A stretch of DNA of 64,000 nucleotides from a virus. Position numbers and translations under genes: made by a program. The stretch lies in IMG/VR virus record IMGVR_UViG_3300021425_003051, positions 1 to 64,000 of that record; one strand, written 5' to 3'. Positions within the stretch are counted from its first letter, which is position 1; every line of letters starts with the position of its first letter. Shown piece after piece: positions 43,762 through 60,607 of the stretch. The notes beneath the pieces were generated by a model that was not told the DNA's origin, searched no databases, and was given only the letters and a program-made list of their open reading frames with translations.

Positions 43762-43772
43762 TTTTTTATTTT

Positions 43773-44294
43773 ATGTTAAGTGAAATTTTTGTCAAAAGAA
43801 AAATAAATTATTTGACCACAATATATCCAAATCATGAAAATTTGAATCAAAAATTAGAATACGATATAAAATCAACAGGTGATGTTACCAATAGACAGAC
43901 ATATGCCAAAGCGTATATGACTGATTGGAAAGAGACAAGATTTAAATCATTTGAAATCTTGTCTCAGTTTGTTATCAATTCTTATAATTCATACATGATG
44001 CATGATAATGTCTATTACTCTACAAAAGACATTAGAGATATGTGGGGGTTAATATACAATAAAGGAGATTATGCTGAGGAACATCAGCATGAGATTAAAA
44101 ACTTATATTCTTTCATTTACTATGTGAAAGCAAGTAAGAAATCATCTCCATTGATTTTTACTGATGGATTTCCATTTCATAAAAAGGTACAACCAGAAAA
44201 TGGAATGTTGATTATATTTCCTTCATATATGAAACATAAAGTTCCTGTGCAAAAATATGACGAAGAAAGAATATCAGTTGCTGGGAATTTTTAA
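43773..44294 (+). CDS. 2OG-Fe(II) oxygenase-like protein
   Basis: A 173-aa protein of the small phage 2OG oxygenase group. YAEEHQHEIKNLYSFIYYVK gives the HxH/E entry to the iron site, GMLIIFPSYMKHKVP the distal His, and DEERISVAGNF the 2OG-binding Arg. It is much more AT-rich than the fibre gene before it, and its stop overlaps the next start. Substrate unknown; fibre proteins are candidates by position. Confidence 0.75.
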   Translation: MLSEIFVKRKINYLTTIYPNHENLNQKLEYDIKSTGDVTNRQTYAKAYMTDWKETRFKSFEILSQFVINSYNSYMMHDNVYYSTKDIRDMWGLIYNKGDYAEEHQHEIKNLYSFIYYVKASKKSSPLIFTDGFPFHKKVQPENGMLIIFPSYMKHKVPVQKYDEERISVAGNF

Positions 44295-44869
44295 TGAAAA
44301 AACTTATATTGAAAGATTACATTTACCATCAAAAGGTAAAAGAACATTTTAATATAAAAAATTTTATATTAAATGAAATAGAGAAAAATAATAAAGAGTC
44401 TTTAAAGGTAACAGATAATTATTATACTGACAGTATTGATAAATTAGACTGGAGTGAATCAGAATGTTTTGATAGAGATTGGGTAAAATTTTTTCTACCA
44501 TATTTTTCAGATGTTCTTGATGAATTTTTAAAGAATTCTCTTTTTTGTGGAGTAAAGTTAAAAGATATCTGGTATCAACAATATTTAAATAATGATACTC
44601 ATGGGTGGCATATTCATGGATCTCATTACACTGGAGTTTATTACTTAGAATTTCCAAACAAAAGTTCTAAAACTGAATTGATTTTCCCCTTTAACAATAA
44701 ATTTCATGAAATAAATGTATCTGAGGGGGATATTATAATATTTCCAAGTCATATCATACATAGAGGATTACCAAACAAAAGTAAAAGAAAAACAATAATA
44801 TCTTTCAATTTTGACCTTTTGTGTGATAAGATAGATATAAACACAATAACTAATCTCTATAGAAAATAA
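44294..44869 (+). CDS. 2OG-Fe(II) oxygenase-like protein
   Basis: A 191-aa relative of the previous protein. Key parts are NDTHGWHIHGSHYTGVYYLE (HxH), SEGDIIIFPSHIIHRGLP (distal His) and KRKTIISFNFD (Lys/Arg and the closing strand). The N-terminal third is Lys/Asn/Ile-rich. AT-rich like its neighbour, which suggests recent gain from another phage lineage. Substrate unknown. Confidence 0.75.
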   Translation: MKKLILKDYIYHQKVKEHFNIKNFILNEIEKNNKESLKVTDNYYTDSIDKLDWSESECFDRDWVKFFLPYFSDVLDEFLKNSLFCGVKLKDIWYQQYLNNDTHGWHIHGSHYTGVYYLEFPNKSSKTELIFPFNNKFHEINVSEGDIIIFPSHIIHRGLPNKSKRKTIISFNFDLLCDKIDINTITNLYRK

Positions 44870-44877
44870 ATTTAATC

Positions 44878-45498
44878 ATGGCATTTCAATCAATTTGGTA
44901 TTTTACCGAACTACCCAAAGATGTTGTAGACATCATTGAGAGTGACTTATCTGAAAAGTTCGATGAACAAATGAGAGACTCCAGACTGCAAGGGGATGCT
45001 CTTAATAAAGATAAGCGTAACTCACAAAACGCATGGGTTCCTACCACGCACTGGGTTGGTGGTTTCCTGTGGCACTATATCGAACGTGCAAACCGTGAGA
45101 ACTTCCTGTATGATCTGCGGTGTATTGATGGAGAATCTATGCAATACACCCGTTATGAAGAGGGTCAATTCTACGGATGGCACAATGACGCAGGACTTTC
45201 TACACAATACAAACCCGTAAGTGAGGGTAATCGTAATGATGGATTGGCACAGGACTTTGTGAATGAAAACGTTGAACTTGTCCGCAAACTGTCTTTTGTA
45301 ATGCAACTCTCTGACCCCGATGACTATGAGGGTGGTAACCTGCAACTTCTTGATGAAGGAGGTCAATCTTACATTGCTCCACGACAGAGAGGATGTGTTA
45401 TATTGTTTGACTCCCGCACACAACATCGAGTTCTGAAAGTCACAAAAGGAACTCGTAAGTCCATTGTCGGATGGACTGTTGGACCCCGTTGGAAGTGA
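44878..45498 (+). CDS. Prolyl-4-hydroxylase-type 2OG-Fe(II) oxygenase
   Basis: A 206-aa protein of the PKHD/P4H type. It has MQYTRYEEGQFYGWHNDAGL with the HxD pair, KLSFVMQLSDPDDYEGGNLQ, then FDSRTQHRVLKVTKGTRKS with the distal His and Arg. Enzymes of this class hydroxylate proline or related side chains. Arginine codons are mostly CGT/CGC, whereas the two genes before it use AGA, so it probably has a different origin or stronger expression. Confidence 0.88.
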   Translation: MAFQSIWYFTELPKDVVDIIESDLSEKFDEQMRDSRLQGDALNKDKRNSQNAWVPTTHWVGGFLWHYIERANRENFLYDLRCIDGESMQYTRYEEGQFYGWHNDAGLSTQYKPVSEGNRNDGLAQDFVNENVELVRKLSFVMQLSDPDDYEGGNLQLLDEGGQSYIAPRQRGCVILFDSRTQHRVLKVTKGTRKSIVGWTVGPRWK

Positions 45499-45506
45499 GG
45501 TAGAAC

Positions 45507-46235
45507 ATGGCAGAACTAATGACAGAACATCATATTGCATACCAGGAGAGGAAAAACACTGGAAGTGCTTGGACTCATAATGATATTTTTGACAAGAATG
45601 GATACCTGGTGATTAAAGACCTCTGGGATCCTGAAGAACTTTATCATCCAGTTCCTGAACAGAGGGGACAACTGAACTATTATGATAAGAATCCAGAACA
45701 CTTCAACCATGACGAAGTAGAACTACAGGTAGAAGGTTCTATTGCACGTTATTGGCACCCACAATATCGTGTGATTCACACTGGTATTCGTCTAAAACTG
45801 GAAAAAATTATCGGTCGCAAGTTATATAATACCTACTATTATGATCGTTTTTATTTTCCTGGTCAGGAACTAAAACGACATGCTGATCGTAATGGATGTG
45901 AGATTTCAGTTTCTATTCATGTCAGTACTAACCTAAAAGGTAAAGACGCTGATTGGCCTTTCTGGATCAAGACACCAGATACTTACACTGATGAGAACAA
46001 AACAACTGTTCTTGTTCCTGGTGAAAATCGTTCCTTGGTTCTGAAACCTGGTGATGGTTTACTCTATAAGGGTTGTGAGAGACCACACTGGCGTGATCCC
46101 ATGCCAGGAGTCAGAAAGAGAGATAGAATTTCGTTCTTCAAGAACAGAAATCCTTATTACTATCATCAGATTTTCTTCCATTATGTTCTTCAAGATGGAC
46201 AACGTGCCCACTGTGCATGGGATAAATCAAGATAG
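45507..46235 (+). CDS. 2OG-Fe(II) oxygenase
   Basis: A 242-aa protein. NTYYYDRFYFPGQELKRHAD holds the HxD iron ligands, followed by RNGCEISVSIHVS, and later LKPGDGLLYKGCERPHWRD with the distal His and VRKRDRISFF with the Arg. It is common in T4-like cyanophages. It starts 8 bp after the P4H-type gene, with which it probably forms a unit that ends at the late box of the next fibre gene. Confidence 0.85.
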   Translation: MAELMTEHHIAYQERKNTGSAWTHNDIFDKNGYLVIKDLWDPEELYHPVPEQRGQLNYYDKNPEHFNHDEVELQVEGSIARYWHPQYRVIHTGIRLKLEKIIGRKLYNTYYYDRFYFPGQELKRHADRNGCEISVSIHVSTNLKGKDADWPFWIKTPDTYTDENKTTVLVPGENRSLVLKPGDGLLYKGCERPHWRDPMPGVRKRDRISFFKNRNPYYYHQIFFHYVLQDGQRAHCAWDKSR

Positions 46236-46245
46236 AAAAAGTCTT

Positions 46246-46253
46246 GATAAATA
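46246..46253 (+). promoter_or_regulatory. Late promoter box (GATAAATA)
   Basis: GATAAATA 20 bp before the fibre gene at 46274. Confidence 0.65.
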
Positions 46254-46273
46254 ACTAAAAAAGTGTACCGATA

Positions 46274-47152
46274 ATGGCTCAGACTAAAGCCCAATTATTA
46301 AATCCACTAAATGGAAGTATAAATGTTAGTGGCATTGTAACCTCAGGTGGTTTTAAGGTAGGTACTGGTATCTCTATAGTTGGTACAGGAATTGCCGCCA
46401 CGGCATTTTACGGTGATGGGTCACAACTGACTGGTATTACGGCAGGTGCTACACTCTCCGCTGGTTCTGGAGATCAAAGAGTTGTACTTACCAGTTTGAC
46501 ATCTGGTACAATGACATCTGCAGCAACAGATGCTGAACTGAGTTATAATTCTAGTACAAATACACTGAGTGCCACTACATTTAATGGTAGTTTAACTGGA
46601 GATGTCACAGGAAATGTAACTGGAACAGCAGCCACATTCAGTGGGGATGTTTCTGTTGGTGGAACACTTACTTATCAGGATGTAACTAACGTAGATTCTG
46701 TTGGTCTGATTACAGCAAGATCTGGTATTAGAATCGGGACTGGTGGAACTGTAGGTCCTGTAGGATCAGGTATTGTTACTTATTATGGTGATGGATCACA
46801 ACTGAGTGGTATTTCAGCTGGTATTAGTACCACAGCATTATCACCATCAGCGAACACAACAGTCATACTTAACCTGAGTACAGCACAACATCATGACCTC
46901 ACATTATCAGCAGGTATTACAACAATTACCTGTACTGGTGGTGTTTTTGGAGAGTCTCATTCGGTTGTAATTACTCAACCATCATCAGGTATTGCTACTA
47001 TAGGATTCAGTACATACTTCTTATTCCCTTCTGGTTCTACACCATCAATGTCAGAGGGGGGTGGAAGCATTGACTTAATTTCCTTTGTGGTTAAGAGAGT
47101 CGGCACCGCAGGAACACAATTACTGGCATCTGCTGGTCTCAACTATCAGTGA
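46274..47152 (+). CDS. Tail fibre protein
   Basis: A 292-aa beta-rich fibre protein: GIVTSGGFKVGTGISIVGTG, ATAFYGDGSQLTGITAG, a Thr/Gly repeat TGDVTGNVTGTAATFSGDVS and a second YYGDGSQLSGI unit. The C-terminal 90 residues (HHDLTLSAGITTITCTGG and following) form a capping domain like the end of the 1963-aa protein. A 93-bp part is nearly identical to part of the fibre gene in cassette A. Confidence 0.8.
   Translation: MAQTKAQLLNPLNGSINVSGIVTSGGFKVGTGISIVGTGIAATAFYGDGSQLTGITAGATLSAGSGDQRVVLTSLTSGTMTSAATDAELSYNSSTNTLSATTFNGSLTGDVTGNVTGTAATFSGDVSVGGTLTYQDVTNVDSVGLITARSGIRIGTGGTVGPVGSGIVTYYGDGSQLSGISAGISTTALSPSANTTVILNLSTAQHHDLTLSAGITTITCTGGVFGESHSVVITQPSSGIATIGFSTYFLFPSGSTPSMSEGGGSIDLISFVVKRVGTAGTQLLASAGLNYQ
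46331..46423 (+). repeat. 93-bp segment shared with the fibre gene at 40.7 kb, copy 2
   Basis: Counterpart of 40655-40747; about 10 differences in 93 bases, no gaps. Confidence 0.75.
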
Positions 47153-47164
47153 GGAGGTAGATAA

Positions 47165-50100
47165 ATGGCATTAAGAGCAGGATTTCATGGCACTGTAGGA
47201 CAATCCAGTGCTCAGGTTGTTGATGGTAGTTTGAAGTTTGATGGATCTAAGAGTCAGTATCTCGCGAGAACTCCAAGTTCTGCAGGAAATCGTAGAACAT
47301 GGACTTGGAGTGCTTGGTTGAAGAGATATAAATTTGCTGATGATAATACATATCATTATCTCTTTTCTACACGAACTAGTAGTTCTAATAGACATCACAT
47401 ATCATATAATGCTGATGTTGCTGATGAACTTTTCACTTATGACAATACAAATAGTAATAATAAAATAGCACAAACCAATGCCAAATATAGAGACACTGGT
47501 TGGTATCATGTAGTTGTTATCTATGATACTACGAATGGTGATGGTGGAGAAAGATTAAAGTTTTTTATAAATGGTGTCGAAAACGACGACTGGGGTTCCT
47601 ATCAAACCAACAGTGAAAATTTTGAAGGATTGATAAACTCAGTTACTGAACATAGGTTAGGTGGTGAACCCAATGCACCTGGATATTTCTATGGCAGCAT
47701 GTCACAAGTATATTTCATAGACGGTCAAGCACTCGGACCTGGATATTTTGGATATACTGACCCACTCACAAATACTTGGAGACCTAAAAAATATACTGGT
47801 GGATTTAATAATCCAAATAATGGAACGACTTGGAGTAGTGATATAACAGGTACTCCACTCAATAGTACTGTCGGTGAAGCATTTGATGGTTCATTAGCAA
47901 CTGGGGCACAACCAGATTCTTTACTTACTTGGACACCATCATCCACAATTACTGCACAAAATCAAATAAGATTGTATATCTATCAAAATGGTTATACTTC
48001 TCAATATGGAACTTTTGAGCAAAATGGAACTAACTTAGCAACATCTATTGCATCACAGTTGGGGGATGGTGTTGCTGGATGGATTACATTACCATCAAAT
48101 ACCATTACCGAATTAAAGTGGAGTAGAGATACTGGTGTTGGTAGTTGGGCATTAAGAGCAGTTGAAGTTGATGGATATGTTCTTTTAGATGGTGCTGGTG
48201 ATAATTCTTTCCACCTCCCCTTTGATGGAAACTCACCAATCGGTCAGGACAAATCTGGTAGAGGAAACAACTGGACACCAGTAAACTTTGGTGGTTCTAA
48301 TTCTCTTGAGAAAGCAACAGGAGCACTACCAATTCTGAATACTGATGGTGGTGGTAAGGTTGCAAGAGTTGGTACAAGAACTGATGAGAATGCAAGTAGT
48401 TTGGTATTAGCACTACCTTTGGTTGGTATTTCTTCTGATGTAAGTAACCAGATTAATAGTGGAAGTACAACAAAAACAGTTGCGGTCACAGGTGCAACGG
48501 CTTCGACCACTCGAAGTAACTTATACGGTGGCAGTTACTACTTTAATGGACCAACAAATGGTGCCAGTGCTGCTACTCAATATGCTATAGTCTCAGATAG
48601 TAATAGTGAGTTTGCATTTGGAACAAATGATTTTACAATGGAATTTTGGGTATGGGGAACCGATTGGACTGGAGGATCTTCCAATCAAGATCAGGTAATT
48701 TTCGGTCATGATGGATCAGATTATGCTGGATTTTATATACCTGCAGGTGTTTTTTCATACTATACAAGTTCTGCTAACATTCCATCTTCAAATAAACCAA
48801 CTTTACTGGATAACAAATGGTATCATGTAGCAGTATCAAGAGAATCAGGAACATCTAGAGTTTTTCTTGATGGTGTATTAGTTGGATCGGCTTCAGATAA
48901 TACTAATCACCCAACAGGTTCGATTATTCTTGCAAGAAATCCCAGTAACAATTTAAATCAATTTAATGGATATATTCAAGATGTCCGCATCTACAAAGGT
49001 GTCGCAAAATACACCAGTAACTTCATACCAGCATCAACCGACCCAGACATTCTCCCAGACACTCCATCAGGTGTGAGTGGTAGTTCTAAACTAACCAAGA
49101 TTACTGAAGGTGCTGTTGCTTTTGATGGTAGTGGTGATTATTTAAGTATTACTGATAATGGAGATTTTACATTAGATGGCGATTTTACTGTAGAATGCTT
49201 CTTTAATTTGTCTACAACTAGTGGCAATAATGCTATTTTTGGATTAGGTCCATTTGCTGGAGGCAATAACACAAAAGTTCTCTTTAGGTATGAATCAAGT
49301 GGCAACTTTAATTATTACATTGGAAGTGATGTTCTACGCAGTAGACCAATATCAAAAAATTCTTGGTATCATCTAGCTGTCGTAAGGAATAGTAATGTAG
49401 TAAAGATATTTTTAAATGGAACACAAGTAGGAGCAGACATTTCTCATAGTGCTACTATCAGTGGAAACGTTCATATAGGAAGCGGAAATAGTGGTGGATC
49501 AGAATATAATACTATGACTGGATTTATATCCAACTTCCGTATTATCAAAGGAACCGCACTCTACACATCAGATTTCACACCACCAACCAGAGCACTCACA
49601 GATGTAACCAACACAACCCTTCTGTGTTGTAAGTCACCAACATCAGCAACAGCATTTGATGTCTCACCTGGAAGTATCACAGCAAACGGAAACGCAGCAG
49701 CAACCAACTTCAACCCATTCAACACTGATATAAACACAGTTCGTGGACAAGAGAGTGGTTATTGTACTTGGAATCCACTGACCACGACAACTTCAATGTT
49801 ATTTGATGGGAACCTTCTATCAAGATACACTAGTGGAGCATGGAAGTCTGCCCTTGGGACAATTGGAATTTCTTCAGGTAAATGGTACTGGGAAAATCAA
49901 CTAATAGATGCTGGCATTGGTCACATGTATGGAATTGCTTTGCCAACTGCTGCTGCTGACTCTCATAACACAGACATTTTTGGGGTGTACGCATATGATG
50001 GCACAACTTTTGCGGCAGGAGCGCAAGCTCAAAGTTACGCAAGTGCTTTTTCCCCTGGCGACATTATTGGCGTTGCTTTAGATCTTACTCCAGGAGGCAC

Positions 50101-51370
50101 AAGTGGGACTCTAACTTATTATAAAAATGGTGTTAGTCTAGGGGTTGCTTTTAGCGCCTTAGATTGTTCTAAAACTTATTTTCCTTGGGTATTAGAAAAT
50201 GGTAATGCTAGCACTGGTGGAAGTATCTGCAACTTCGGACAAAAACCCTTCAAGTTCCCACCACCAGCAGGTTTCCAACCACTGAATGCTGCTAATGTTC
50301 GTCCTTCTACTGTGATTGCACGTCCTGATCAGTATGTTGGTGTGACGACTTATAGTGGCGATTCTTCTTCTAATCGAAAAATTAATCTAAATCTAAAACC
50401 AGATTTCGTATGGTTTAAATCTAGAACAGCAGCTAACAGTCATGTATTAGTTGATTCTGTAAGAGGTGGTAATAAAGTTTTATATTCTGATCAGTCTGTC
50501 GGTGATGTAACTGCATCTGCTATTTCCTCTTTTGATATTGATGGTATGACCATAAACGACATTGTGGGAGATGGTCGTTCTGTTAACAATAGTGGTAGAG
50601 ATATTGTTGCCTGGTGCTGGAAAGCAGGTGGAAACAAAAACACCTTTAATATTGATGATGTAGGTTATGCAACTGCTTCTGCTGCTGGATTAACTGCTGG
50701 AACAGAAACCATTGATGGTGCATCAATTAATACAAAATCTGGGTTTAGTATTATCAAATACACTGCATCTGGTGGAGGGTCTATAGATCACGGTTTAGGA
50801 AAAACTCCAGCATTTATAATACAAAAAACAACAGGAACTGGTAATTGGAACATATGGCATAGTGCTCTTGGAGGAACTCAATATTTAAATTTCACCACGA
50901 CAGATGTTCAAACAGATTCTGGAAATTTTAGTAGTGCTCCAACATCCACAGTTTTTAATATCGGTGGAAATGGTGGTGTTAATGGAACTTGTATTGCATA
51001 TCTGTGGCACGATGTCCCTGGCCTACAGAAATTTGGAGAATACTCTGGAAATTTAAGTAGTAATGGTCCGACGATTATAACAGGATTTAGACCGTCAGTC
51101 GTAATAATTAAAAGATACGATAGTTCTGGTGATCACTGGTTTATTCATGATGCAGAACGAAATAAAACAAATGTTGTTAACGCAAGATTATATCCAAGTT
51201 GGGATCAGTATGAATTTACAAATGTTGATGCTTTGGATTTCTTGTCAAACGGATTCAAATTGCGAACTAGCGATACTTCATGGAATGCCTCTGGTGGTAC
51301 ATACATCTACGCAGCATGGGCAGAAGCACCAACATTTAACTTGTATGGTGGACAGTCCAACGCTCGCTAA
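47165..51370 (+). CDS. 1401-aa adhesin with three LamG-like and one SPRY-like domain
   Basis: A 1401-aa protein. Three concanavalin/LamG-type domains are seen at about 15-210 (SLKFDGSKSQYLARTPSS, WYHVVVIYD), 440-625 (TMEFWVWGTDW, WYHVAVSRESGTSRVFLDG) and 650-805 (TVECFFNLSTTSG, WYHLAVVRNSN). Next is a B30.2/SPRY-like domain at about 865-1035 (SSGKWYWENQLIDAGIGHMY, GDIIGVALDL, LTYYKNGVSLGVAF). The last 350 residues have PDFVWFKSRTAANSH and GRDIVAWCWKAGG, typical of phage surface-binding proteins. Binding of host glycans or proteins is likely. Confidence 0.83.
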   Translation: MALRAGFHGTVGQSSAQVVDGSLKFDGSKSQYLARTPSSAGNRRTWTWSAWLKRYKFADDNTYHYLFSTRTSSSNRHHISYNADVADELFTYDNTNSNNKIAQTNAKYRDTGWYHVVVIYDTTNGDGGERLKFFINGVENDDWGSYQTNSENFEGLINSVTEHRLGGEPNAPGYFYGSMSQVYFIDGQALGPGYFGYTDPLTNTWRPKKYTGGFNNPNNGTTWSSDITGTPLNSTVGEAFDGSLATGAQPDSLLTWTPSSTITAQNQIRLYIYQNGYTSQYGTFEQNGTNLATSIASQLGDGVAGWITLPSNTITELKWSRDTGVGSWALRAVEVDGYVLLDGAGDNSFHLPFDGNSPIGQDKSGRGNNWTPVNFGGSNSLEKATGALPILNTDGGGKVARVGTRTDENASSLVLALPLVGISSDVSNQINSGSTTKTVAVTGATASTTRSNLYGGSYYFNGPTNGASAATQYAIVSDSNSEFAFGTNDFTMEFWVWGTDWTGGSSNQDQVIFGHDGSDYAGFYIPAGVFSYYTSSANIPSSNKPTLLDNKWYHVAVSRESGTSRVFLDGVLVGSASDNTNHPTGSIILARNPSNNLNQFNGYIQDVRIYKGVAKYTSNFIPASTDPDILPDTPSGVSGSSKLTKITEGAVAFDGSGDYLSITDNGDFTLDGDFTVECFFNLSTTSGNNAIFGLGPFAGGNNTKVLFRYESSGNFNYYIGSDVLRSRPISKNSWYHLAVVRNSNVVKIFLNGTQVGADISHSATISGNVHIGSGNSGGSEYNTMTGFISNFRIIKGTALYTSDFTPPTRALTDVTNTTLLCCKSPTSATAFDVSPGSITANGNAAATNFNPFNTDINTVRGQESGYCTWNPLTTTTSMLFDGNLLSRYTSGAWKSALGTIGISSGKWYWENQLIDAGIGHMYGIALPTAAADSHNTDIFGVYAYDGTTFAAGAQAQSYASAFSPGDIIGVALDLTPGGTSGTLTYYKNGVSLGVAFSALDCSKTYFPWVLENGNASTGGSICNFGQKPFKFPPPAGFQPLNAANVRPSTVIARPDQYVGVTTYSGDSSSNRKINLNLKPDFVWFKSRTAANSHVLVDSVRGGNKVLYSDQSVGDVTASAISSFDIDGMTINDIVGDGRSVNNSGRDIVAWCWKAGGNKNTFNIDDVGYATASAAGLTAGTETIDGASINTKSGFSIIKYTASGGGSIDHGLGKTPAFIIQKTTGTGNWNIWHSALGGTQYLNFTTTDVQTDSGNFSSAPTSTVFNIGGNGGVNGTCIAYLWHDVPGLQKFGEYSGNLSSNGPTIITGFRPSVVIIKRYDSSGDHWFIHDAERNKTNVVNARLYPSWDQYEFTNVDALDFLSNGFKLRTSDTSWNASGGTYIYAAWAEAPTFNLYGGQSNAR

Positions 51371-51383
51371 ATACTCAAGACTG

Positions 51384-52174: not shown

Positions 52175-52462
52175 ATGTCATCACTAAGAGTTAACAAAAT
52201 TATAAATGAAGCAGGAACTGGACCTGTAGAATTTAGTAAAGGAGTTACGTTCCCAGCTGGAGCTCCTATTCCTGAGTCAAATATGACCATAAATACCACT
52301 GGTATCGTCACAACTTCTGATATTTTCATAAATGATAACATTAACGTTGTTGGCACAATGACTGCTAGAGATGGTGGTAAATTTATTGGTAATGGATTTA
52401 ACATTACAAATCCTCCAGGAACTCCATCAGGAAAAGTCATTGGACTCTATCTAATCAGTTAA
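52175..52462 (+). CDS. Small fibre-family protein B1
   Basis: A 95-aa member of the small family, closest to A1: both begin MSSLRVNKI-x-N and share GPVEFSKGVT. In the middle it has an extra stretch (IFINDNINVVGTMTARDGGK) and ends KVIGLYLIS. First of four small genes in cassette B. Confidence 0.7.
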   Translation: MSSLRVNKIINEAGTGPVEFSKGVTFPAGAPIPESNMTINTTGIVTTSDIFINDNINVVGTMTARDGGKFIGNGFNITNPPGTPSGKVIGLYLIS

Positions 52463-52470
52463 AAACTATT

Positions 52471-52746
52471 ATGGCATCTCAAGTTAGAGTAGATCAAATA
52501 ACGAATCTCAATGGCGATGGGGCTACGGAGTTAGTCCATGGAGCAACAATCCCATCGGGACAACCGTTTAACATAGGTGGAAACTTAAATATTACTGGAG
52601 TCACTACAGTTGGATTCCTAACAGCACAAAATGTCACTGTTGGTGTCATTACTGCAAACAAATTCGTTGGTGATGGTTCTGGTCTCACTGGACTTCAAGT
52701 TTTGGGCGAAGCTAAAGCGGTCGCATTCGCTTACTTACAGGGATAG
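52471..52746 (+). CDS. Small fibre-family protein B2
   Basis: A 91-aa family member: SQVRVDQITNLNGDGATELV, GATIPSGQ, GVTTVGFLTAQNVTVGVITA, FVGDGSGLTGL and a hydrophobic end. The insert VGFLTAQ-x-VTVG is shared with B3 and B4 and is absent from the cassette A members, so it arose within cassette B. Confidence 0.7.
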   Translation: MASQVRVDQITNLNGDGATELVHGATIPSGQPFNIGGNLNITGVTTVGFLTAQNVTVGVITANKFVGDGSGLTGLQVLGEAKAVAFAYLQG

Positions 52747-52757
52747 GTATCTAATCA

Positions 52758-53048
52758 ATGGCAAGACTCAGAGTTGACTCTATTAGAAACAGAAATGATG
52801 ATGGACCACCATCTCTATTTAAAGGTGCTTCAATTCCATCAGGTGGGACTCTTGGTGTTAGTGGTGATATATCCGTAATTGGAGTCTCTACAGTTGGATT
52901 TTTGACAGCACAACATGTTACTGTTGGTGTTGTTACTGCAACCTCTTTTGTTGGTGACGGTTCTGCTTTAACGTCTTTACAAACTACAAGTGCATCAAAA
53001 GCTTATGCACTTAGAAGTCTCTTAGATCCTTTACCATTCCGATCATGA
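52758..53048 (+). CDS. Small fibre-family protein B3
   Basis: A 96-aa family member: ARLRVDSIRNRNDDGPPSLF, GASIPSGGTL, GVSTVGFLTAQHVTVGVVTA, FVGDGSALTSL, ending LLDPLPFRS. B3 and B4 share the C-terminal pattern L-L-x-x-x-P-x-R-S, so they are the most recent duplicates. Overlaps B4 by 4 bp. Confidence 0.7.
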   Translation: MARLRVDSIRNRNDDGPPSLFKGASIPSGGTLGVSGDISVIGVSTVGFLTAQHVTVGVVTATSFVGDGSALTSLQTTSASKAYALRSLLDPLPFRS

Positions 53049-53335
53049 GTTTTAATGTTAGAGTAGACTCTCTTACAAATAAAGACAATAATGGTCCAAT
53101 AGAAGTTCCTTCTGGACTTTCTGTGGATTCTGGTGAACTTGCTGCCAATGGAAAAATAGACATCACAGGATTCACTACAGTTGGATTTCTAACAGCACAA
53201 CACGTCACAGTAGGTATCATAACTGCAACAACACTTGTCGGTGACGGATCTGAACTGACAAATCTTCCTACAGTGACACCATCCAAATCAATCGCTCTAA
53301 AATTACTTCTTTCAGATCCTCCTCTCAGATCCTAA
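53045..53335 (+). CDS. Small fibre-family protein B4
   Basis: A 96-aa family member: FNVRVDSLTNKDNNGPIEVP, GFTTVGFLTAQHVTVGIITA, LVGDGSELTNL, ending LLLSDPPLRS. It starts as ATGA within the B3 stop. Same module as B2 and B3, with a more diverged P-S-G part (V-D-S-G). Confidence 0.7.
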   Translation: MSFNVRVDSLTNKDNNGPIEVPSGLSVDSGELAANGKIDITGFTTVGFLTAQHVTVGIITATTLVGDGSELTNLPTVTPSKSIALKLLLSDPPLRS

Positions 53336-53345
53336 GACTAAAGAT

Positions 53346-53353
53346 TATAAATA
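53346..53353 (+). promoter_or_regulatory. Late promoter box (TATAAATA)
   Basis: Perfect TATAAATA 30 bp before the MAAPNIVG-type gene, at the same relative place as in cassette A. Confidence 0.8.
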
Positions 53354-53383
53354 AATATACTTAAGAACTCAACATTATAAAAA

Positions 53384-53761
53384 ATGGCTGCTCCGAACAT
53401 TGTAGGTGTAACAACCATTACTGGAATTACTACCTTTGTAAGTTTAACCACAACTGATGCTACTAACATCGTTAGTAATCCAGCAGATAGTGGTGCGGTT
53501 TATAAAATTAACACTATAATCGCTGCCAATATTGATGGTACGTCCACTGCTAATATCACCGTCAAAATTCATGATGCAGCCGCTGGAGCTGGATCATCTG
53601 TTCCAATCGCAAACACCATTGATGTAGTAGCAGATTCCACTTTGGTTGTTCTTGACAAAGCATCAGCAATTTATCTTGAAGAAAACAGATCAATCAGTGC
53701 GACAGCATCAGCTGCTGATGATTTGGCAATAACATGTTCATATGAAGAAGTTTCTGACTGA
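53384..53761 (+). CDS. Putative fibre-associated protein, cassette B
   Basis: A 125-aa paralogue of the protein at 41851-42225. It starts MAAPNIVGVTTITGITTF and shares A-N-x-D-G-T-S, ITVKIHDAAAGAGSS, the KASAIYLEENRSI strand and CSYEE at the end. Beta-rich, no cysteine-based or catalytic site. Probably a virion component expressed late. Confidence 0.75.
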   Translation: MAAPNIVGVTTITGITTFVSLTTTDATNIVSNPADSGAVYKINTIIAANIDGTSTANITVKIHDAAAGAGSSVPIANTIDVVADSTLVVLDKASAIYLEENRSISATASAADDLAITCSYEEVSD

Positions 53762-53778
53762 TAAGGAGTTTAACTAAA

Positions 53779-54381
53779 ATGGCAGATCCAACAGCATTAT
53801 ACTCCTATAAAGGAGATTCACCAACCACTCTTCCTCACAAAATTAGGTTGAGTGATGGAAGAGTTCGTACAGATGTTTCTTCTTTTTCTGATGAAGAAAT
53901 TGCAGATGCGGGATACACTGGACCTTATACAGTCCCCAGTTTTAACGAAGCAAGTCAGAGAGTTACTTGGAATTCTTCTGATTTAGAGTATGTTGTGGCA
54001 GACATTCCCGACTCGGAGTTGTGGGCTTCAATTCGTGCCAAAAGAAATCAACTTTTGAGTGAATGTGATTGGGTAATGTGTTCTGATACTCCAGGTGAGA
54101 CATCAAAGAACAATATAAAAGAATGGGAGAAATATCGTCAGAGATTAAGAGATTTGACTAAGGATCAAACAGATCCTTCATCAATTTCATGGCCACTTTC
54201 ACCAACTGCTGAAGGTGTGATATTTGATGCAACCCCTGTCGAAGAACTTAAACTGAGACATAGAGTTGAAGATTTGGAATCAAAAATAGTATCCTTACAG
54301 GAGGCTATAGAAGATGTTAGAGTACCAGTTAGTAGACTTGAAACAGTAGAGACAAAGGTCGCAGCTTTAGAAGCAAAGTAA
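53779..54381 (+). CDS. Phage tail (fibre) assembly chaperone-like protein, cassette B
   Basis: A 200-aa paralogue of 42241-42678. The N-terminus shares LYSYKGDSPTTLPHKIRLSDG-type sequence and EEIADAGYTGPYT. The chaperone-like part is KRNQLLSECDWVMCSDTPGE and WEKYRQRLRDLT. A 60-residue C-terminal coiled coil (LRHRVEDLESKIVSLQEAIE) is extra and absent from cassette A. Likely helps assemble a fibre. Confidence 0.78.
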   Translation: MADPTALYSYKGDSPTTLPHKIRLSDGRVRTDVSSFSDEEIADAGYTGPYTVPSFNEASQRVTWNSSDLEYVVADIPDSELWASIRAKRNQLLSECDWVMCSDTPGETSKNNIKEWEKYRQRLRDLTKDQTDPSSISWPLSPTAEGVIFDATPVEELKLRHRVEDLESKIVSLQEAIEDVRVPVSRLETVETKVAALEAK

Positions 54382-54402
54382 ATTTTAATTAAAGGGGTAA
54401 AC

Positions 54403-55113
54403 ATGGCACCTTTTAGACCATCAAATTTAAATAAAAGAGCATATCCAGGCAATGCTAGTGTGATAGGTCCTACAGCCACAACAACTTGTTCTGCTACCAC
54501 GACATGTTGCTGTGAAACTAGAACTTGTAAGGATGCTTGTCAAGACTACCCCCTAAACTTAGGGTGTAGATGTTGTTGTTGTGGTTGCCCCTGTTGTCAA
54601 ATCAATACATGTTGTGAGTGTACTGTTTGTACCAGAACCCAATCAAAGGGTATGTGGAAGACCTCTGAGGTTTATACAGCAAGAGAAGCTGATGAATGGG
54701 GAGATACTACATCTTCAAATACTCCAGAGGGTATAGTCAATACAGTTGGAACTGGAGTAACTGACATTACTGTTCAGAAAGACTTTAAGGGTTTCTATAT
54801 CAAATCCAATTGTTCCTTTGTTTCTCCAAATGCTTATCAGGTAAACTCAAACTGGCACGATAGAAACAACGCTGTTACCTGTTCTAATACTTTGGTCAAC
54901 TGTAGTTGGTTTGTCGGTTCATGTGATTGGTACAAGCAGATCGGATCACCATGTAGGACTTACTGGGACCAATATTCTAGTTCATATTGGACAGATACAG
55001 AAGCAAATGGTCAATGGGCTTATGTTATCAACATGAATAATGCCACTGCCAACAATTATGCTAACTATAAGACTAGAGGTAAAACCGTAAGAGCTGCTAG
55101 AAGCACCAGATAA
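54403..55113 (+). CDS. Cysteine-rich structural protein, last gene of cassette B
   Basis: A 236-aa protein with 18 cysteines between residues 29 and 76, including runs such as CRCCCCGCPCC and CCECTVC, and five more in the C-terminal half. After that comes a beta-like region rich in Trp/Tyr/Asn (DFKGFYIKSNCSF, YWDQYSSSYWTDTEANGQWA). It replaces the Gly-rich adhesin found at the end of cassette A. The Cys block may bind metals or form a disulfide-locked tip. The remaining sequence fits no family I know. Confidence 0.7.
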   Translation: MAPFRPSNLNKRAYPGNASVIGPTATTTCSATTTCCCETRTCKDACQDYPLNLGCRCCCCGCPCCQINTCCECTVCTRTQSKGMWKTSEVYTAREADEWGDTTSSNTPEGIVNTVGTGVTDITVQKDFKGFYIKSNCSFVSPNAYQVNSNWHDRNNAVTCSNTLVNCSWFVGSCDWYKQIGSPCRTYWDQYSSSYWTDTEANGQWAYVINMNNATANNYANYKTRGKTVRAARSTR

Positions 55114-55150
55114 TTAAACATATAGATATATAAAATTCTTTGTTATTTTT

Positions 55151-55759
55151 ATGAATCATATTGATATCTTTACAACTGCATTGTTTCAATCCACATATAC
55201 TAATTTTGACTCTGATAAAGAAAAGATCTTAAAGTCAGTTGATGAATACCTGAAGGAAAATCCCACCTCGGTTTTAAAATCCAATACCCAGGGTTATGGA
55301 TTTCATTCGGAAGAAAATATTCACTCTTGTCCTGATTTGCAAGATTTGTTCAATGAGATATGTGGACTGTGTGTTTCCTATGCAAAGTTATTAGACTTAG
55401 ATGTTGAACATAAAATACCAGCAATAACTAGTTCATGGGCTAATATTGCTGATAATAGAATGTCATCTCATGCTATTCATGTTCATGAAGGTGTCATAAG
55501 TGGAAGTGTATATCTAGAAGTTCCAGAAAATAGTGGTCAAATTGTATTTCATAATTATTCAATAAATCCTTTATGGATGGGAAATTATCTTGCAAAGAAT
55601 AAAAATCAATACACTGGTCAGAGTCTCAAAGTAGATCCAAAAGAGGGTGAGATAGTCATGTGGCCTTCCTATCTTCCACATTCGGTTGAACAGAACAATC
55701 ATGATGACAAAAGGATAAGTATATCATTTAATTGTATTTTCTTTGATAAACCAGAATGA
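55151..55759 (+). CDS. 2OG-Fe(II) oxygenase-like protein
   Basis: A 202-aa protein of the same small phage 2OG group as 43773. It has SSHAIHVHEGVISGSVYLEV (HxH), KEGEIVMWPSYLPHSVEQN (distal His) and DDKRISISFN (Arg). It directly follows cassette B, as the other oxygenases follow cassette A. It overlaps the next gene by 4 bp. Confidence 0.82.
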   Translation: MNHIDIFTTALFQSTYTNFDSDKEKILKSVDEYLKENPTSVLKSNTQGYGFHSEENIHSCPDLQDLFNEICGLCVSYAKLLDLDVEHKIPAITSSWANIADNRMSSHAIHVHEGVISGSVYLEVPENSGQIVFHNYSINPLWMGNYLAKNKNQYTGQSLKVDPKEGEIVMWPSYLPHSVEQNNHDDKRISISFNCIFFDKPE

Positions 55760-56301
55760 ATAAACCTGATAGTTTTTATAAGATAGGTAATCTTAGAGAC
55801 AGCGAATTAACTGATCAAATAAAATTTGTTGAAGGATTGTCTTTTGATGTTGATAATTATTATGATGAGTCCTATAATAGGACTGAACATTTCCCACAGT
55901 GTGTATCTCATGCGATTATAGATCAATTCAATCCTGTGAGTGATGACTCCATGAAATTTACATTTTCCATTCCTTACCTGATTAAGGCACTGAGGGATGA
56001 ATATGGACCAGGTAAATTTTGGAAAGCTTTTTATGCGAAACTACCTAGTGGGGGAAAGATACTAGAACACTATGATGGAGGTCTTGGGTTCACTTTGAGT
56101 CATAGAATTCATGTTCCAATCAAAACAAATAAAAATGTTTTATTCTCTGTAGATGGCGAGAAGAGAGAATTAAACCAAGGGGAAATAATTGAAATTAATA
56201 ATCTCAAAGATCATTTTGTTGAAAATGATGATCCAAACGAGGATAGAATACATTTGATTATGGATTTCGTCACTGTAGAGTATATGCACATGATACGATG
56301 A
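55756..56301 (+). CDS. Asp/Asn beta-hydroxylase-like 2OG oxygenase
   Basis: A 181-aa protein resembling aspartyl/asparaginyl beta-hydroxylases. It has KILEHYDGGLGFTLSHRIHV with the first iron-binding His, LNQGEIIEINNLKDHFVEND with the distal His, and DRIHLIMDFV. That class hydroxylates Asp or Asn in protein domains. Candidate substrates here are the Asp/Asn-rich fibre repeats. Overlaps both neighbours (ATGA). Confidence 0.82.
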   Translation: MNKPDSFYKIGNLRDSELTDQIKFVEGLSFDVDNYYDESYNRTEHFPQCVSHAIIDQFNPVSDDSMKFTFSIPYLIKALRDEYGPGKFWKAFYAKLPSGGKILEHYDGGLGFTLSHRIHVPIKTNKNVLFSVDGEKRELNQGEIIEINNLKDHFVENDDPNEDRIHLIMDFVTVEYMHMIR

Positions 56302-57011
56302 AAAAGGCACTCGTTACCTTTGATATAGACTATGATAAAAGAATCACAGATATAACTATTCCTTTTATGGAAAGTTATTCCAAAAAGATTGGTGCAGAAT
56401 TCATAGTCATAAAAGAGAAAAAAATAAATCAACCAGTGATCTGTGAAAAGTTTCAACTTTATGAACTATCAAAAGATTACGATTGGACAATTTGTATCGA
56501 TTGTGACGCCATAATTCACCCGAATTGCCCTGATTTTACTGAACTTGTTGGAAAAGAAACTGTCATATTCAATTCTATAGATTTCTATCCCATAAGATTC
56601 AAACACAATAATTACACTAGAAGAGATGGAAGAAACATAGGTGCCTCTCCCTGGTTGACAATTTTTAGTGATTGGAATAGACACTTATGGGAACCATATG
56701 ATAATCCAGAACAATATGTAAGTGACATCAACCTAACTATGAGGGAGAAGAACTTTGGATATAGACCAGAACACATATTGTCAGATTATTTGGTTAGTAG
56801 AAATATTGCAAAGTATGGATTAAAGGTTAAAACAATTTTTCAAGATCTCCTAAATGATTTCCCATCTCATCCCAATAGAGGAATTCCTCTCTTCTTTTTA
56901 CATGAGTATTGTATAACACAAGATCAAAAGGTAGATTTTCTAAATTTTTGGAAAGATAAGATAGAATCATCATCACACTTTTATGATAACCAAATCAACA
57001 AATTGACATGA
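56298..57011 (+). CDS. GT-A type glycosyltransferase-like protein
   Basis: A 237-aa protein with a Rossmann-like start (KKALVTFDIDYDKRITD) and a DxD motif in DWTICIDCDAIIHP, the place that binds the metal and sugar nucleotide in GT-A enzymes. Later parts include NIGASPWLTIFSDWNRHLW and PLFFLHEYC. Donor and acceptor unknown. It may add sugar to fibre proteins or host polysaccharide; the former is favoured by position. Confidence 0.75.
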   Translation: MKKALVTFDIDYDKRITDITIPFMESYSKKIGAEFIVIKEKKINQPVICEKFQLYELSKDYDWTICIDCDAIIHPNCPDFTELVGKETVIFNSIDFYPIRFKHNNYTRRDGRNIGASPWLTIFSDWNRHLWEPYDNPEQYVSDINLTMREKNFGYRPEHILSDYLVSRNIAKYGLKVKTIFQDLLNDFPSHPNRGIPLFFLHEYCITQDQKVDFLNFWKDKIESSSHFYDNQINKLT

Positions 57012-57784
57012 AACAATATTATTTTATTTCTGGTCTCCCAAGATCTGGTTCTACTCTACTATCATCAATATTAAGACAAAATCCAAAGTTTCATGCTGAT
57101 ATATCTTCATCATTGGAACCTATCCTGTCGAATTGTGTGGAGACATTGAGTTGTACTGACAGTGATGGATTCATTGAAGTAGAACAAAGAAAAAATACAT
57201 TAAAATTCATGGTTGATGGGTATTATCATCACATAAAAGAACCAATAATTTTTGATACCAATAGATCATGGACCAGTAAAACATTTTTTCTTAAAACAAT
57301 TTTTCCTCAAACAAAAATAATTTGTTGTGTCAGGGACATCGTTTCTATTTTGAATTCAATTGAATTAATTCAGGGGAAAAACAGTCTTTACAAAAATTGG
57401 ATGGTTGATGACGAATCAAGTGTGAATGTGTTTACTAGGTGTGAGTCATTGATGAGAGACACTGGGCTTGTTGGTTCGGCTCTAAAGTTTTTGATGGAGG
57501 GTTATTGTTCCAATCCTGAGATGATATATATTTGTGATTACAAGACTTTTTGTGAAGATCCAGAAAAAATGATGAGAGGAATATATCAATTTTTAAATAT
57601 TGAATATTATTCAAATCATGATTTTGACAATGTAGAGTATTCTAAGAAGTCTTTTGATTCATTTGTTGGATTGTGTGATCTTCACAAAACCAGAAAGAAA
57701 GTCTCCTACGATCCACCAAAATGCATTTTACCTCCTATGTTGGTTGACAAATATAAAGAATTGGAGTTTTGGCAATGGAAATAA
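57008..57784 (+). CDS. Sulfotransferase
   Basis: A 258-aa sulfotransferase-like protein. The 5'-phosphosulfate loop is intact at the start (FISGLPRSGSTLLSSILRQN) and the 3'-phosphate site is CCVRDIVSILNS. It should move sulfate from PAPS to a hydroxyl or amino acceptor, such as Tyr or sugar. It overlaps the glycosyltransferase stop (ATGA), which suggests linked action on one substrate. The host must supply PAPS. Confidence 0.88.
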   Translation: MKQYYFISGLPRSGSTLLSSILRQNPKFHADISSSLEPILSNCVETLSCTDSDGFIEVEQRKNTLKFMVDGYYHHIKEPIIFDTNRSWTSKTFFLKTIFPQTKIICCVRDIVSILNSIELIQGKNSLYKNWMVDDESSVNVFTRCESLMRDTGLVGSALKFLMEGYCSNPEMIYICDYKTFCEDPEKMMRGIYQFLNIEYYSNHDFDNVEYSKKSFDSFVGLCDLHKTRKKVSYDPPKCILPPMLVDKYKELEFWQWK

Positions 57785-58317
57785 AATTATTCGTACATAT
57801 TCCCAAGACGGCTGGACAATCCGTATTTGACTGTATAGATGATAAATGGAATAGATCTTTTCCAATGAAACATGATCCATATTTCCATTTACAAAGAATA
57901 AATGAAATAGGTCCAGAGGTTTATAAGTTTTGTGTGATCAGAAATCCATATAGAAGAACTTTTAGTTACTTCAGACACTGGATAAGACAAGTCGGTGGTG
58001 GTGAACAACCTTTTGAATATTTCCTCGGACAAATTAAAAATAAAGTATTTTATGAGAGAACACCAATGTATTCATATCCCCAATCACTTTATGTTTTAGA
58101 TACTGATGGTGAGATTGGAAGAGATTTGAATATCTTTAGATTTGAAAAGTTAGAAGAGTTAGAAGACAGAATAAAAATAAAATTACCACATAAAAATGTC
58201 GGTGATTACACAGATGAGGATTATTATAAGGCTTACACTGAAAAAAACATATCAATGGTACAAAAACTTTTCAAAGTCGATTTTGATAATTTTAATTATG
58301 AGATAGATTTTAAATGA
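57775..58317 (+). CDS. Sulfotransferase family protein
   Basis: A 180-aa protein of the carbohydrate sulfotransferase type, with KLFVHIPKTAGQSVFDCI as the 5'-phosphosulfate loop and YKFCVIRNPYRRTFSYFRHW as the 3'-phosphate site. I start it at the ATG inside the previous gene's last codons rather than at a TTG 6 bp upstream. It is shorter than the usual family length, so it may be a minimal form. Acts probably on sugars, possibly those added by the neighbouring transferases. Confidence 0.85.
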   Translation: MEIKLFVHIPKTAGQSVFDCIDDKWNRSFPMKHDPYFHLQRINEIGPEVYKFCVIRNPYRRTFSYFRHWIRQVGGGEQPFEYFLGQIKNKVFYERTPMYSYPQSLYVLDTDGEIGRDLNIFRFEKLEELEDRIKIKLPHKNVGDYTDEDYYKAYTEKNISMVQKLFKVDFDNFNYEIDFK

Positions 58318-58949
58318 AAATTGTTTATGTAGAGGAACCCTTTTTTCATATCATAGTAGAAGAGACATTTTCTGGTCTAGATTCAATTTTTAATGAAGTA
58401 GACGTGGTGAAGGGCGAATTAAAGGATCCACGACATACAGGTGGGGCTCTGTCTGTGACAGGGGAGAACAGAAAGAAAAGCAAAGGATTGTTTCTAAATG
58501 AACGTAAAGAATATCAGTATTTGAAGCTAGTTTCTGGTATCAATGAAGCTTTACAAAGATTAAAACGTTCAATAGTATGGAAGAATCAAACCCTTTATCG
58601 ATTGTATGAAAAAACTATTTGGACGGGTTTCTTACTGAATCATTATGAGCGTGATGATTATTATCTACCACATACTGATGATGGATTGTTCACATTTATC
58701 ACCTTTCTCTTTGATGATTATGACAATCGTGTAGGTGGAGATTTATATTTTCCAGAGTACGATTACTTACACAAATGTAAAAACAATCAATCAATTTTAT
58801 TTCTTTCTAGTGAAGTGCATGGGGTAACAACTTTTGAATCTAAAAATAATAGATATAGCATTTCTACATTTTCAACTCTGTGGAGAAGATTCCAAGATCC
58901 TCCACTAAATAACAAAAATATCGATCCTTTAAAAATAACTTATAATTAA
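58314..58949 (+). CDS. 2OG-Fe(II) oxygenase, P4H-like
   Basis: A 211-aa protein. LNHYERDDYYLPHTDDGLFT has the HxD ligands, VGGDLYFPEYDYLHKCKNNQ follows, and ILFLSSEVHGVTTFESKNNR has the distal His before the Arg. The G-G-D-L-x-F-P turn is typical of prolyl-4-hydroxylase-like proteins. It overlaps the sulfotransferase stop by ATGA, so it belongs to the same unit. Confidence 0.83.
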   Translation: MKIVYVEEPFFHIIVEETFSGLDSIFNEVDVVKGELKDPRHTGGALSVTGENRKKSKGLFLNERKEYQYLKLVSGINEALQRLKRSIVWKNQTLYRLYEKTIWTGFLLNHYERDDYYLPHTDDGLFTFITFLFDDYDNRVGGDLYFPEYDYLHKCKNNQSILFLSSEVHGVTTFESKNNRYSISTFSTLWRRFQDPPLNNKNIDPLKITYN

Positions 58950-58950
58950 A

Positions 58951-59892
58951 ATGAAAATTATCAATGTTGACGGTGGAATTGGAAGAGTGATTACATCACT
59001 CCCATCATTGTTGAAGTATCATAAAAATAATCCTGAAGAAGAATGGTATCTCTCAATTTCAGGATGGGATTATATTACTTTTGGTATTCCAGAACTTGAT
59101 GAGAGAACTTTTAATCCAGAGACAAAGGGTGTTTGGGAAAATTATTATCTAAAGGCGGATGAAGTGGTTCATGCAGAACCATATCGTCTTCCCAATTTTT
59201 ACAAAGGAAAGATTTCTCTTGCAGAGGCATTTGATGAAATCATTAATAAAACCGATGATCACAGTGATTTGGATTATGAATCTCTGAGTGTTTCAAATTC
59301 AGAAACTCGTAAAGGACAAGAAGTTATTTTTCATGCATATGAAAAATGGGAGAAACATCAAACTATTGTCATCAATCCGTATGGATCTACCGCACAGGTA
59401 TCCCCTGTAGGGATCTATGATGACTCCTTAAGATCGTTACCTGAAAGTATGTTCATCAAGCTTTCTAAACTCCTTGCAAAGGATTATAATGTCATTTACA
59501 TGGGGTATCATCATTTAGCCCCACAAGATGATATTGAACATCTCTGTATTCCACAAAATGATTTACACATTCGTGAATGGATGGGAGTAATTTCTCAGGT
59601 GGATTATCTGGTTGGGTGTGACAGTGTGGGTCAACATATTGCAAGATCGGTAGGAACAAAGGGATGTGTAATTATGGGAGGAACTGATCCAGTGAATATG
59701 TCTTATCCCGATTACTTTAGAACTATTCAAAGAAAGAAACCAGTGTACTCTCCCATGAGAGTTTCAATGACACAATCAAATTTTGCAGAGAGATTGAATG
59801 AGGATTGTATGAATTATACTGAGGAGGAAATTTTAGACATCTATGGAAAGATAAAATCTGATTTAGAAGAAATTCTCAGTGAACATGAATAA
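58951..59892 (+). CDS. GT-B (family 9-like) glycosyltransferase
   Basis: A 313-aa protein resembling heptosyltransferase-type GT-B enzymes. It starts KIINVDGGIGRVITSLPSLL, with the N-terminal Gly loop and P-S-L helix, and the C-terminal half has VINPYGST, VIYMGYHHLAP and VDYLVGCDSVGQHIARSVGT followed by CVIMGGTDP, the nucleotide-sugar site. Such enzymes add sugars to lipopolysaccharide cores or other surface glycans. Here it could modify host surface or fibre glycans. Confidence 0.8.
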   Translation: MKIINVDGGIGRVITSLPSLLKYHKNNPEEEWYLSISGWDYITFGIPELDERTFNPETKGVWENYYLKADEVVHAEPYRLPNFYKGKISLAEAFDEIINKTDDHSDLDYESLSVSNSETRKGQEVIFHAYEKWEKHQTIVINPYGSTAQVSPVGIYDDSLRSLPESMFIKLSKLLAKDYNVIYMGYHHLAPQDDIEHLCIPQNDLHIREWMGVISQVDYLVGCDSVGQHIARSVGTKGCVIMGGTDPVNMSYPDYFRTIQRKKPVYSPMRVSMTQSNFAERLNEDCMNYTEEEILDIYGKIKSDLEEILSEHE

Positions 59893-60607
59893 ATCAATGG
59901 AAGTGTATTCTTCTGTCTTTGATAATGCACTTAAAATTTCTAATGACATCAAAATTGAGAAAATAAATGATGACATAACTTTAGTGGATAATATTTTTGA
60001 AAATTATGATGATCTTCTTGAATTAGTTAATAATTTAACTTTTTGGGAGGGATGGTTCTTTTTAGATTCTAGACCTGTGCTCTCACACATCCTTCCACCT
60101 GGTTTTGGATGTGAATTGATAACCAAAGTGTTTGATCACAAATTTGATCTATATTCTGTAGATTGTTCTGTGAACAAAAACAGTTCTAGTTCTACAGTTG
60201 GAACTAGAAAGTTAAGTCCCAGCTCTAATGCTCAAATTCCACATTTTGATGTGAACGAAAACCTACTCCAAGAGATAAATGCGGACAAGAGTATTGATTG
60301 TAGTATATTTCTCATGAACTTCAATCGATTTGATGTTGAAACTAACTTTTGGTCATACAAAAATAAAATGTATGTTGAGGATGCGAGTGTTGTAGAGGAT
60401 TTTAGAAGAGAAAATGGAAGTAAAGAACTATCAGAAAGGTTTTTGAATGATCTTTCTGAGGAATATTCCATAAAATATGGACCAAATCAAGGAATTCTAT
60501 ACTCTGCAAGAATGTTTCATTCACCAAATCTTGAGTGTATGAGTAACAATGAAGATAGAATTTGTACCAGAGTTCAATACTTTAGAAAACTCAATTATGG
60601 AAAATAA
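59885..60607 (+). CDS. Putative 2OG oxygenase-like protein (DUF6445-like)
   Basis: A 240-aa protein. NAQIPHFDVNENLL offers an HxD pair, SIFLMNFNRFDVETNFWSY a core strand set, and GILYSARMFHSPNLE plus DRICTRVQYF a distal His and Arg. The spacing fits a 2OG oxygenase of the DUF6445-like kind, which has no assigned reaction. I start at the ATG overlapping the upstream stop, not at a GTG 6 bp earlier. It is AT-rich like the rest of the island. Confidence 0.65.
   Translation: MNKSMEVYSSVFDNALKISNDIKIEKINDDITLVDNIFENYDDLLELVNNLTFWEGWFFLDSRPVLSHILPPGFGCELITKVFDHKFDLYSVDCSVNKNSSSSTVGTRKLSPSSNAQIPHFDVNENLLQEINADKSIDCSIFLMNFNRFDVETNFWSYKNKMYVEDASVVEDFRRENGSKELSERFLNDLSEEYSIKYGPNQGILYSARMFHSPNLECMSNNEDRICTRVQYFRKLNYGK

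Follow-up and report, generated by a model that had tools for sequence, protein, structure and literature searches.

Putative tailoring enzymes linked to a lectin-fold tip gene in a probable cyanophage, and to a retroelement in its relatives

Why should a virus keep a dozen genes for hydroxylation, sulfation and glycosyl transfer beside the genes of its tail fibres? The question is raised by a 64-kb stretch of DNA (the window, positions 1 to 64,000) from the 67-kb IMG/VR virus record IMGVR_UViG_3300021425_003051. Its structural genes are cyanophage-like and its source is a probable cyanobacterial virus; psbA, a photosystem gene, was not found in the window record. All twelve enzyme open reading frames (ORFs) that an earlier note had placed in two groups are present, at 43,773-46,235 and 55,151-60,607. 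Their division into eight 2-oxoglutarate (2OG) oxygenase-type proteins, two sulfotransferases and two glycosyltransferases is borne out by family scans, motifs, relatives and, for the glycosyltransferase GTA, a low-confidence model. The second group directly follows the gene of a Cys-rich protein, the putative receptor-binding tip. Judged from sequence comparison, this group may be a tip-linked tailoring cassette with the virion adhesin as substrate, a reading to which we give an even chance. The evidence is comparative throughout: the IMG/VR loci compared are fragments, and their neighbouring genes were labelled with our own profiles. The tip gene and the enzyme genes behind it are as follows.

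54403..55113, + strand: Cys-rich putative tip protein with 23 Cys and a C-terminal C-type-lectin (Lcl_C) fold
55151..55759, + strand: OG5, 2OG oxygenase, anchor of the conserved cassette (PF13759 2e-22, TIGR02466)
55756..56301, + strand: OG6 (AspH), Asp/Asn-hydroxylase-like (Asp_Arg_Hydrox PF05118 5e-12, above cut-off)
56298..57011, + strand: GTA, putative GT-A glycosyltransferase with DxD (no Pfam match; low-confidence model)
57008..57784, + strand: ST1, sulfotransferase (PF13469 2e-16)
57775..58317 (ORF 57769-58317), + strand: ST2, small sulfotransferase (PF03567 family)
58314..58949, + strand: OG7, prolyl-4-hydroxylase (P4H)-like 2OG oxygenase (PF13640 7e-7)
58951..59892, + strand: GTB, GT9/heptosyltransferase-like glycosyltransferase (phrog_8954)
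59885..60607 (ORF 59879-60607), + strand: OG8, 2OG-type protein, DUF6445-like (no Pfam match; one relative DUF6445 3e-8)

OG5 starts 37 bp downstream of the tip gene, and six of the seven junctions between enzyme genes overlap (by 4, 4, 4, 10, 4 and 8 bp), the remaining one being a 1-bp gap. Does this neighbourhood recur in other viruses? IMG/VR was scanned with the OG5 profile as the sole query, loci sharing protein stretches were merged, and 43 independent OG5-clade loci were compared with 23 loci that carry other OG5 paralogues. In 33/43 of the former, against 1/23 of the latter, a tip gene is among the four genes that precede OG5. Within ten genes downstream of OG5, GTB occurs in 35/43 versus 2/23 loci, and ST1 in 29/43 versus 0/23. 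The tie to the adhesion apparatus that had been proposed for these genes now has a statistical footing, although it attaches to one tip gene and not to fibres in general.

The tree and the neighbour labels indicate that the cassette persists as a unit while its content changes. Its variable members are sulfotransferases, carbamoyltransferases, group-1, GT25 and GT-A glycosyltransferases, halogenases, a methyltransferase, a radical-SAM protein and further oxygenases. Mosaic content is also what would be seen if a hypervariable cargo zone beside the tip gene gathered unrelated auxiliary genes, their order reflecting hitchhiking and no pathway. "Stuffer DNA" was considered by Sullivan et al. for the lipopolysaccharide (LPS) clusters of cyanophages (PMC3037559), and the G+C of many island genes is low (0.24-0.36). 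Such a cargo zone is nonetheless unlikely, given that OG5 and GTB are retained across diverse loci, active sites are intact in nearly all of them, reading frames overlap in the window, and the control OG5 paralogues lack this context. Two cassette-bearing contigs, one of them that of locus L067, carry psbA and are on that account taken to be cyanophages. Flavin-dependent (tryptophan) halogenases occur within cassettes at L011:3266-4786 and L023:12482-14044; for such phage enzymes the tip, or the glycan on it, is a candidate in vivo substrate. Right after GTB, at L050:12208-12570, stands a DUF6165 gene (about 120 aa), and similar-sized genes close many cassettes.

Several of the relatives hold a further gene between tip and OG5, a reverse transcriptase (RT; 343-349 aa, YxDD). 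Seven independent loci have it as the gene just upstream of OG5, four of them with a 4-bp overlap, and the enzyme cassette of these loci starts where the RT ends. In L067 the gene after the tip is bAvd-like. An intergenic copy of the tip 3' end, the template, translates to an Asn-rich peptide and differs from the tip at template adenines. Within the best blocks of 100 bases, the share of mismatches at template A is 24/24 in L067, 24/24 in L071, 19/20 in L049, 15/15 in L048 and 19/22 in L065. Adenine-specific change is thus found in the relatives L067, L071, L048, L049/L050 and L065. By this pattern they are diversity-generating retroelements (DGRs) aimed at the tip. The window seems to have lost the element. 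L041, which has the long Cys-rich tip type of the window together with an RT, was left out of the adenine-specific loci since only 8/19 of its mismatches are at A, as was L125, whose template was not cleanly found. The tip pair of L013 was considered as direct proof in the form of template and variable copies and was rejected, its mismatches not lying at A. A DGR in the window itself was likewise rejected, there being no RT and no template repeat: PF00078 is absent from the whole 67-kb record, which may be a fragment, and no second copy of the tip 3' end was found within the window, where tip and OG5 are so closely spaced.

What kind of protein is being varied? Alone, the window tip has no Pfam match, while 18/45 members of its family match PF07603 (Lcl_C) and the family profile matches PDB entry 8q4e (6e-10). 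In the AlphaFold model the C-terminal half of the window tip has a pLDDT of about 90, and its best PDB fold match is the Legionella Lcl C-terminal domain 8q4e (E 7e-5), with C-type lectins next. Through family and model together, the window tip has the Lcl_C/C-type-lectin fold. A receptor-binding role is suggested by this fold, by the position after a chaperone gene and by the retroelement in relatives. Among the cultured phages in the collection, tblastn found no Cys-rich tip, ST2 or AspH, and OG5 at best at about 34%.

When would the enzymes be made? The region contains two paralogous cassettes, A (41084-46235) and B (52175-60607), with a common order of small fibre proteins, late promoter motif, small virion-type protein, tail-assembly-chaperone-like protein, putative tip and enzymes. 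The tip of cassette A is glycine-rich and is followed by OG1-OG4; behind the Cys-rich tip of cassette B lies the bigger set of enzymes. Their remaining features are as follows.

41811..41818, + strand: T4-type late promoter motif TATAAATA, 5' of cassette A
41851..42225, + strand: small virion-type protein, cassette A (paralogue of 53384-53761 by cross-match; no family)
42241..42678, + strand: tail-assembly-chaperone-like protein, cassette A (paralogue of 53779-54381)
42685..43761, + strand: glycine-rich putative tip protein, cassette A (PF21722 3e-8)
43773..44294, + strand: OG1, 2OG-Fe(II) oxygenase (PF13759 5e-14; HQH motif, distal His, Arg)
44294..44869, + strand: OG2, 2OG-Fe(II) oxygenase (PF13759 2e-9)
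44878..45498, + strand: OG3, prolyl-4-hydroxylase/PKHD-like 2OG oxygenase (PF13640 4e-15; PKHD/YbiX-like 9e-15)
45507..46235, + strand: OG4, 2OG-type protein (no Pfam match; phrog_2954)
53346..53353, + strand: late promoter motif TATAAATA, 5' of cassette B
53384..53761, + strand: small virion-type protein s53, cassette B (cross-match with the cassette A paralogue)
53779..54381, + strand: tail assembly chaperone, cassette B (PF16778 4e-17)

The first-group junctions are one 1-bp overlap and two 8-bp gaps; that most genes overlap by 1-11 bp, as had been stated, is true of the whole set, chiefly owing to the second group. Seven NATAAATA motifs occur on the + strand between 29 and 61 kb, six of them in noncoding DNA, which makes up just 431 bases out of 31,345. 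Late promoter motifs stand only ahead of structural genes, and in neither cassette does one lie between the tip and its enzymes, from which it appears that the enzymes are made late, with the virion proteins; each enzyme group should lie within a late structural transcription unit.

Are the oxygenases likely to be functional? The His and HxD/HxH motifs are unbroken in all eight. Six of them pass a Pfam cut-off (PF13759, PF13640 or PF05118), and OG4 and OG8 are assigned by motif and relatives only. Members of PF13759 have HxH in place of HxD, with iron binding by HxH a prediction. In OG4, H125 and D127 (HxD) and the distal H194 are invariant in 17 sequences, and OG8, for which a single-sequence scan gave no matches, carries PHxD. 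The phage-database labels "ferrochelatase" (phrog_2954) for OG4 and "minor coat protein" (phrog_1644, PHROGs) for OG8 were rejected; both look wrong because the two sequences resemble 2OG proteins. These labels are widespread in cyanophage records, an apparent misannotation of 2OG-type proteins. At L079:7001 and L086:7001, OG5-clade members lack the distal His and Arg and are possible pseudoenzymes kept in the cassette.

The earlier note's single Asp/Asn-hydroxylase-like enzyme corresponds to OG6 (PF05118), and its two P4H-like ones to OG3 and OG7 (PF13640). OG6 scores 46.3 bits against the PF05118 cut-off of 22.6, and H105, D107, H153 and R164 are invariant in 17 sequences; by sequence it is a true member of the family. 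The profile scan with AspH gave only two loci, and further AspH loci were reached via ST2. Identity with the lipid A hydroxylase LpxO was rejected (22 bits versus an NCBIfam equivalog cut-off of 500). The PDB entry nearest to the AspH profile is L-proline cis-4-hydroxylase, which would suit a metabolic role in which the 2OG oxygenases tune 2-oxoglutarate/nitrogen signalling or make small molecules and the sulfotransferases act on metabolites. A metabolic role has been proposed for cyanophage 2OG oxygenases (PMC3037559), but it is quite improbable for this locus: the genes lie in late structural transcription units, their coupling to the tip is conserved, and the glycosyl- and sulfotransferases would be left unexplained.

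ST1 scores above the PF13469 cut-off with an invariant 5'-phosphosulfate loop. ST2 alone is weak, and 24/24 scanned members of its family match PF03567 at E <= 0.01 (best 5e-17). ST1 directly and ST2 via its family are thus matched to sulfotransferases that use PAPS (3'-phosphoadenosine 5'-phosphosulfate). A distant ST1 homologue (28% identity) is found in phage S-SCSM1, and none of 80 loci of bacterial ST1 homologues has OG5, GTB or tip partners. ST2 and AspH are adjacent in 24/40 ST2 loci (among them L204-L212). As the pair usually has no tip in its surroundings and frequently has a halogenase close by, it may be an imported module. As to the glycosyltransferases, 15/20 members of the GTB family match GT9 (best 2e-6). 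GTA is without a sequence family; its model (pLDDT 59) finds GT-A enzymes, and the top fold match of this low-confidence model is 2p73, a capsid-glycosylation enzyme of virus PBCV-1, at 9% identity. Profile searches of the PDB with GTA and GTB gave no matches. Pairs of oxygenase and glycosyltransferase that modify nucleic acid exist in other phages, and the same could be imagined here; this is very improbable, since no TET/JBP or base-glucosyltransferase family is among the family-scan matches, the region is late and sulfotransferases do not fit.

The most serious alternative concerns the other partner of the tip. The Legionella Lcl domain binds sulfated glycans, which favours the view that the enzymes remodel a host surface glycan (lipopolysaccharide or capsule), whose hydroxylated, sulfated and glycosylated ends would mask or alter the receptor and so block superinfection or keep progeny from adsorbing again; co-evolution of a receptor binder and a receptor eraser would then account for the link to the tip. 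GTB is GT9 (heptosyltransferase)-like and is found mostly in clusters without OG5 or tip; a carbamoyltransferase is nearby in 50/64 GTB loci, and the relatives of GTB in P-SSM2, S-CAM3 and S-SSM7 adjoin carbamoyltransferase, heptose kinase and phosphoheptose isomerase genes. Relatives carry GT25 and UDP-glucose dehydrogenase, AspH is weakly LpxO-like, and the idea that LPS genes act in superinfection has been published (PMC2984593; PMC9602691). Against this, scans of the window island gave no heptose or nucleotide-sugar genes (heptose kinase, phosphoheptose isomerase (GmhA) and epimerase were all absent among the scanned island proteins), and the tightest gene link is that of tip and retroelement, not sugar synthesis. 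Remodelling of host glycan is the less probable of the two.

The choice of the virion adhesin as substrate has points against it as well. No recognised tip lies within four genes upstream in 10/43 OG5 loci. The tree gathers the OG5 loci into one lineage, in which tip state changed some six times and RT state five, so that the Fisher values for these locus counts are not independent trials and overstate independence. The mosaic content of the cassette is expected of surface-glycan clusters too, and the GTB, ST2 and AspH families occur mainly elsewhere, without this tip. Longer ungapped extensions of template and tip have a lower share of mismatches at template A (e.g., 18/22 in L067 and 8/14 in L041). 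OG6 resembles, weakly, LpxO and L-proline cis-4-hydroxylase, which act on lipids and small molecules. The PDB entry nearest to the ST1 profile is a protein-tyrosine sulfotransferase (TPST; 3e-9), but ST1 was rejected as a TPST: the GEET glutamate after the PRSGTTL loop, which we take to be the catalytic base of TPST, aligns to a non-Glu position in the ST1 profile, so that sulfation of sugar by ST1 is equally likely.

Modification of the tip or fibre is favoured all the same by the apparent late expression, the coupling to the tip and the intact active-site motifs. Further points for it are the nearness of the ST1 profile to protein-tyrosine sulfotransferase, the likeness of the GTA model to an enzyme of a virus that glycosylates its own virion, and the lack of cassette partners around bacterial ST1 homologues. 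The cassette directly follows the tip gene and in relatives the RT adjoins or overlaps the first enzyme gene, and the enzymes probably decorate tip material or what the tip touches. The earlier proposal that the phage decorates its own fibres or host glycans is upheld in part, as to reaction classes, gene run and adhesion link, with the virion as a candidate substrate. The 2OG oxygenases, OG5 among them, would act while the virion is being assembled and add hydroxyls to residues in the tip or in a fibre protein next to it; onto such a hydroxyl, or onto Ser/Thr/Asn, GTA and GTB might then assemble a short sugar; and ST1 and ST2 could cap this sugar by sulfation, joined in relatives by enzymes adding carbamoyl, methyl or halogen. 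Differing sets of caps would alter the charge and specificity of the adhesin, a second layer of variation over that of tip sequence. A tentative model, which we hold at somewhat less than even probability, has the adhesin varying in two layers, a retroelement-diversified lectin-fold tip and a co-transcribed, swappable enzyme cassette, with genotype and surface chemistry varying together. The conserved coupling points to the tip as a candidate substrate, and to its ligand as an alternative one, for 2OG oxygenases, halogenases and sulfotransferases of marine phages. Modification of the tip would add a post-translational layer to phage host range; were host glycan modified instead, the cassette would erase the receptor of a binder that itself varies.

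How much of this is new? Enzyme clusters near cyanophage fibres are known; no report in the open-licence literature was found to link such enzymes to a retroelement-diversified tip, or a retroelement to a sulfotransferase. The relatives share with the Mtd-type DGRs of Bordetella a variable protein of C-type-lectin fold, a bAvd-like gene, a template repeat, a YxDD RT and adenine-specific changes. In the papers found, described phage DGRs do not have downstream tailoring genes as parts, and the window differs from them in having no RT or template. PBCV-1 offers a virus that glycosylates its own surface protein, with an enzyme nearest to the GTA model; it is an unrelated virus, and the likeness of that low-confidence model is at the level of fold only. 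In the cultured Synechococcus phages Bellamy and S-SM2, OG3 and OG4 stand in the same order between fibres at 75-88% protein identity (85-88% for OG3), and this pair of the first group is an ordinary part of the finding; the flanking annotation of these phages lists no sulfo- or glycosyltransferases, unlike the window.

Single 2OG oxygenases near fibres had been taken as the known state, which understates it, as multi-gene sets have been described before, with 24 2OG oxygenases and 13 cell-wall genes in S-SCSM1 (PMC9602691). This phage resembles the window in its many oxygenases plus glycan genes, but its set was described as metabolism or cell-wall genes with no tie to a tip (PMC9602691). LPS clusters of uncertain role are found in T4-like cyanophages as well (PMC3037559; PMC2984593). 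Those of P-SSM2, S-CAM3 and S-SSM7, which lie between tail fibre and gp13, have a GTB homologue of 29-31% identity in a similar fibre neighbourhood. 2OG oxygenases are present in P-SSM2 and S-SSM7, and a halogenase and carbamoyltransferases in S-SSM7. Compared with these "LPS" clusters, the window has in addition two sulfotransferases, an AspH-like enzyme and, directly upstream, the lectin-fold tip.

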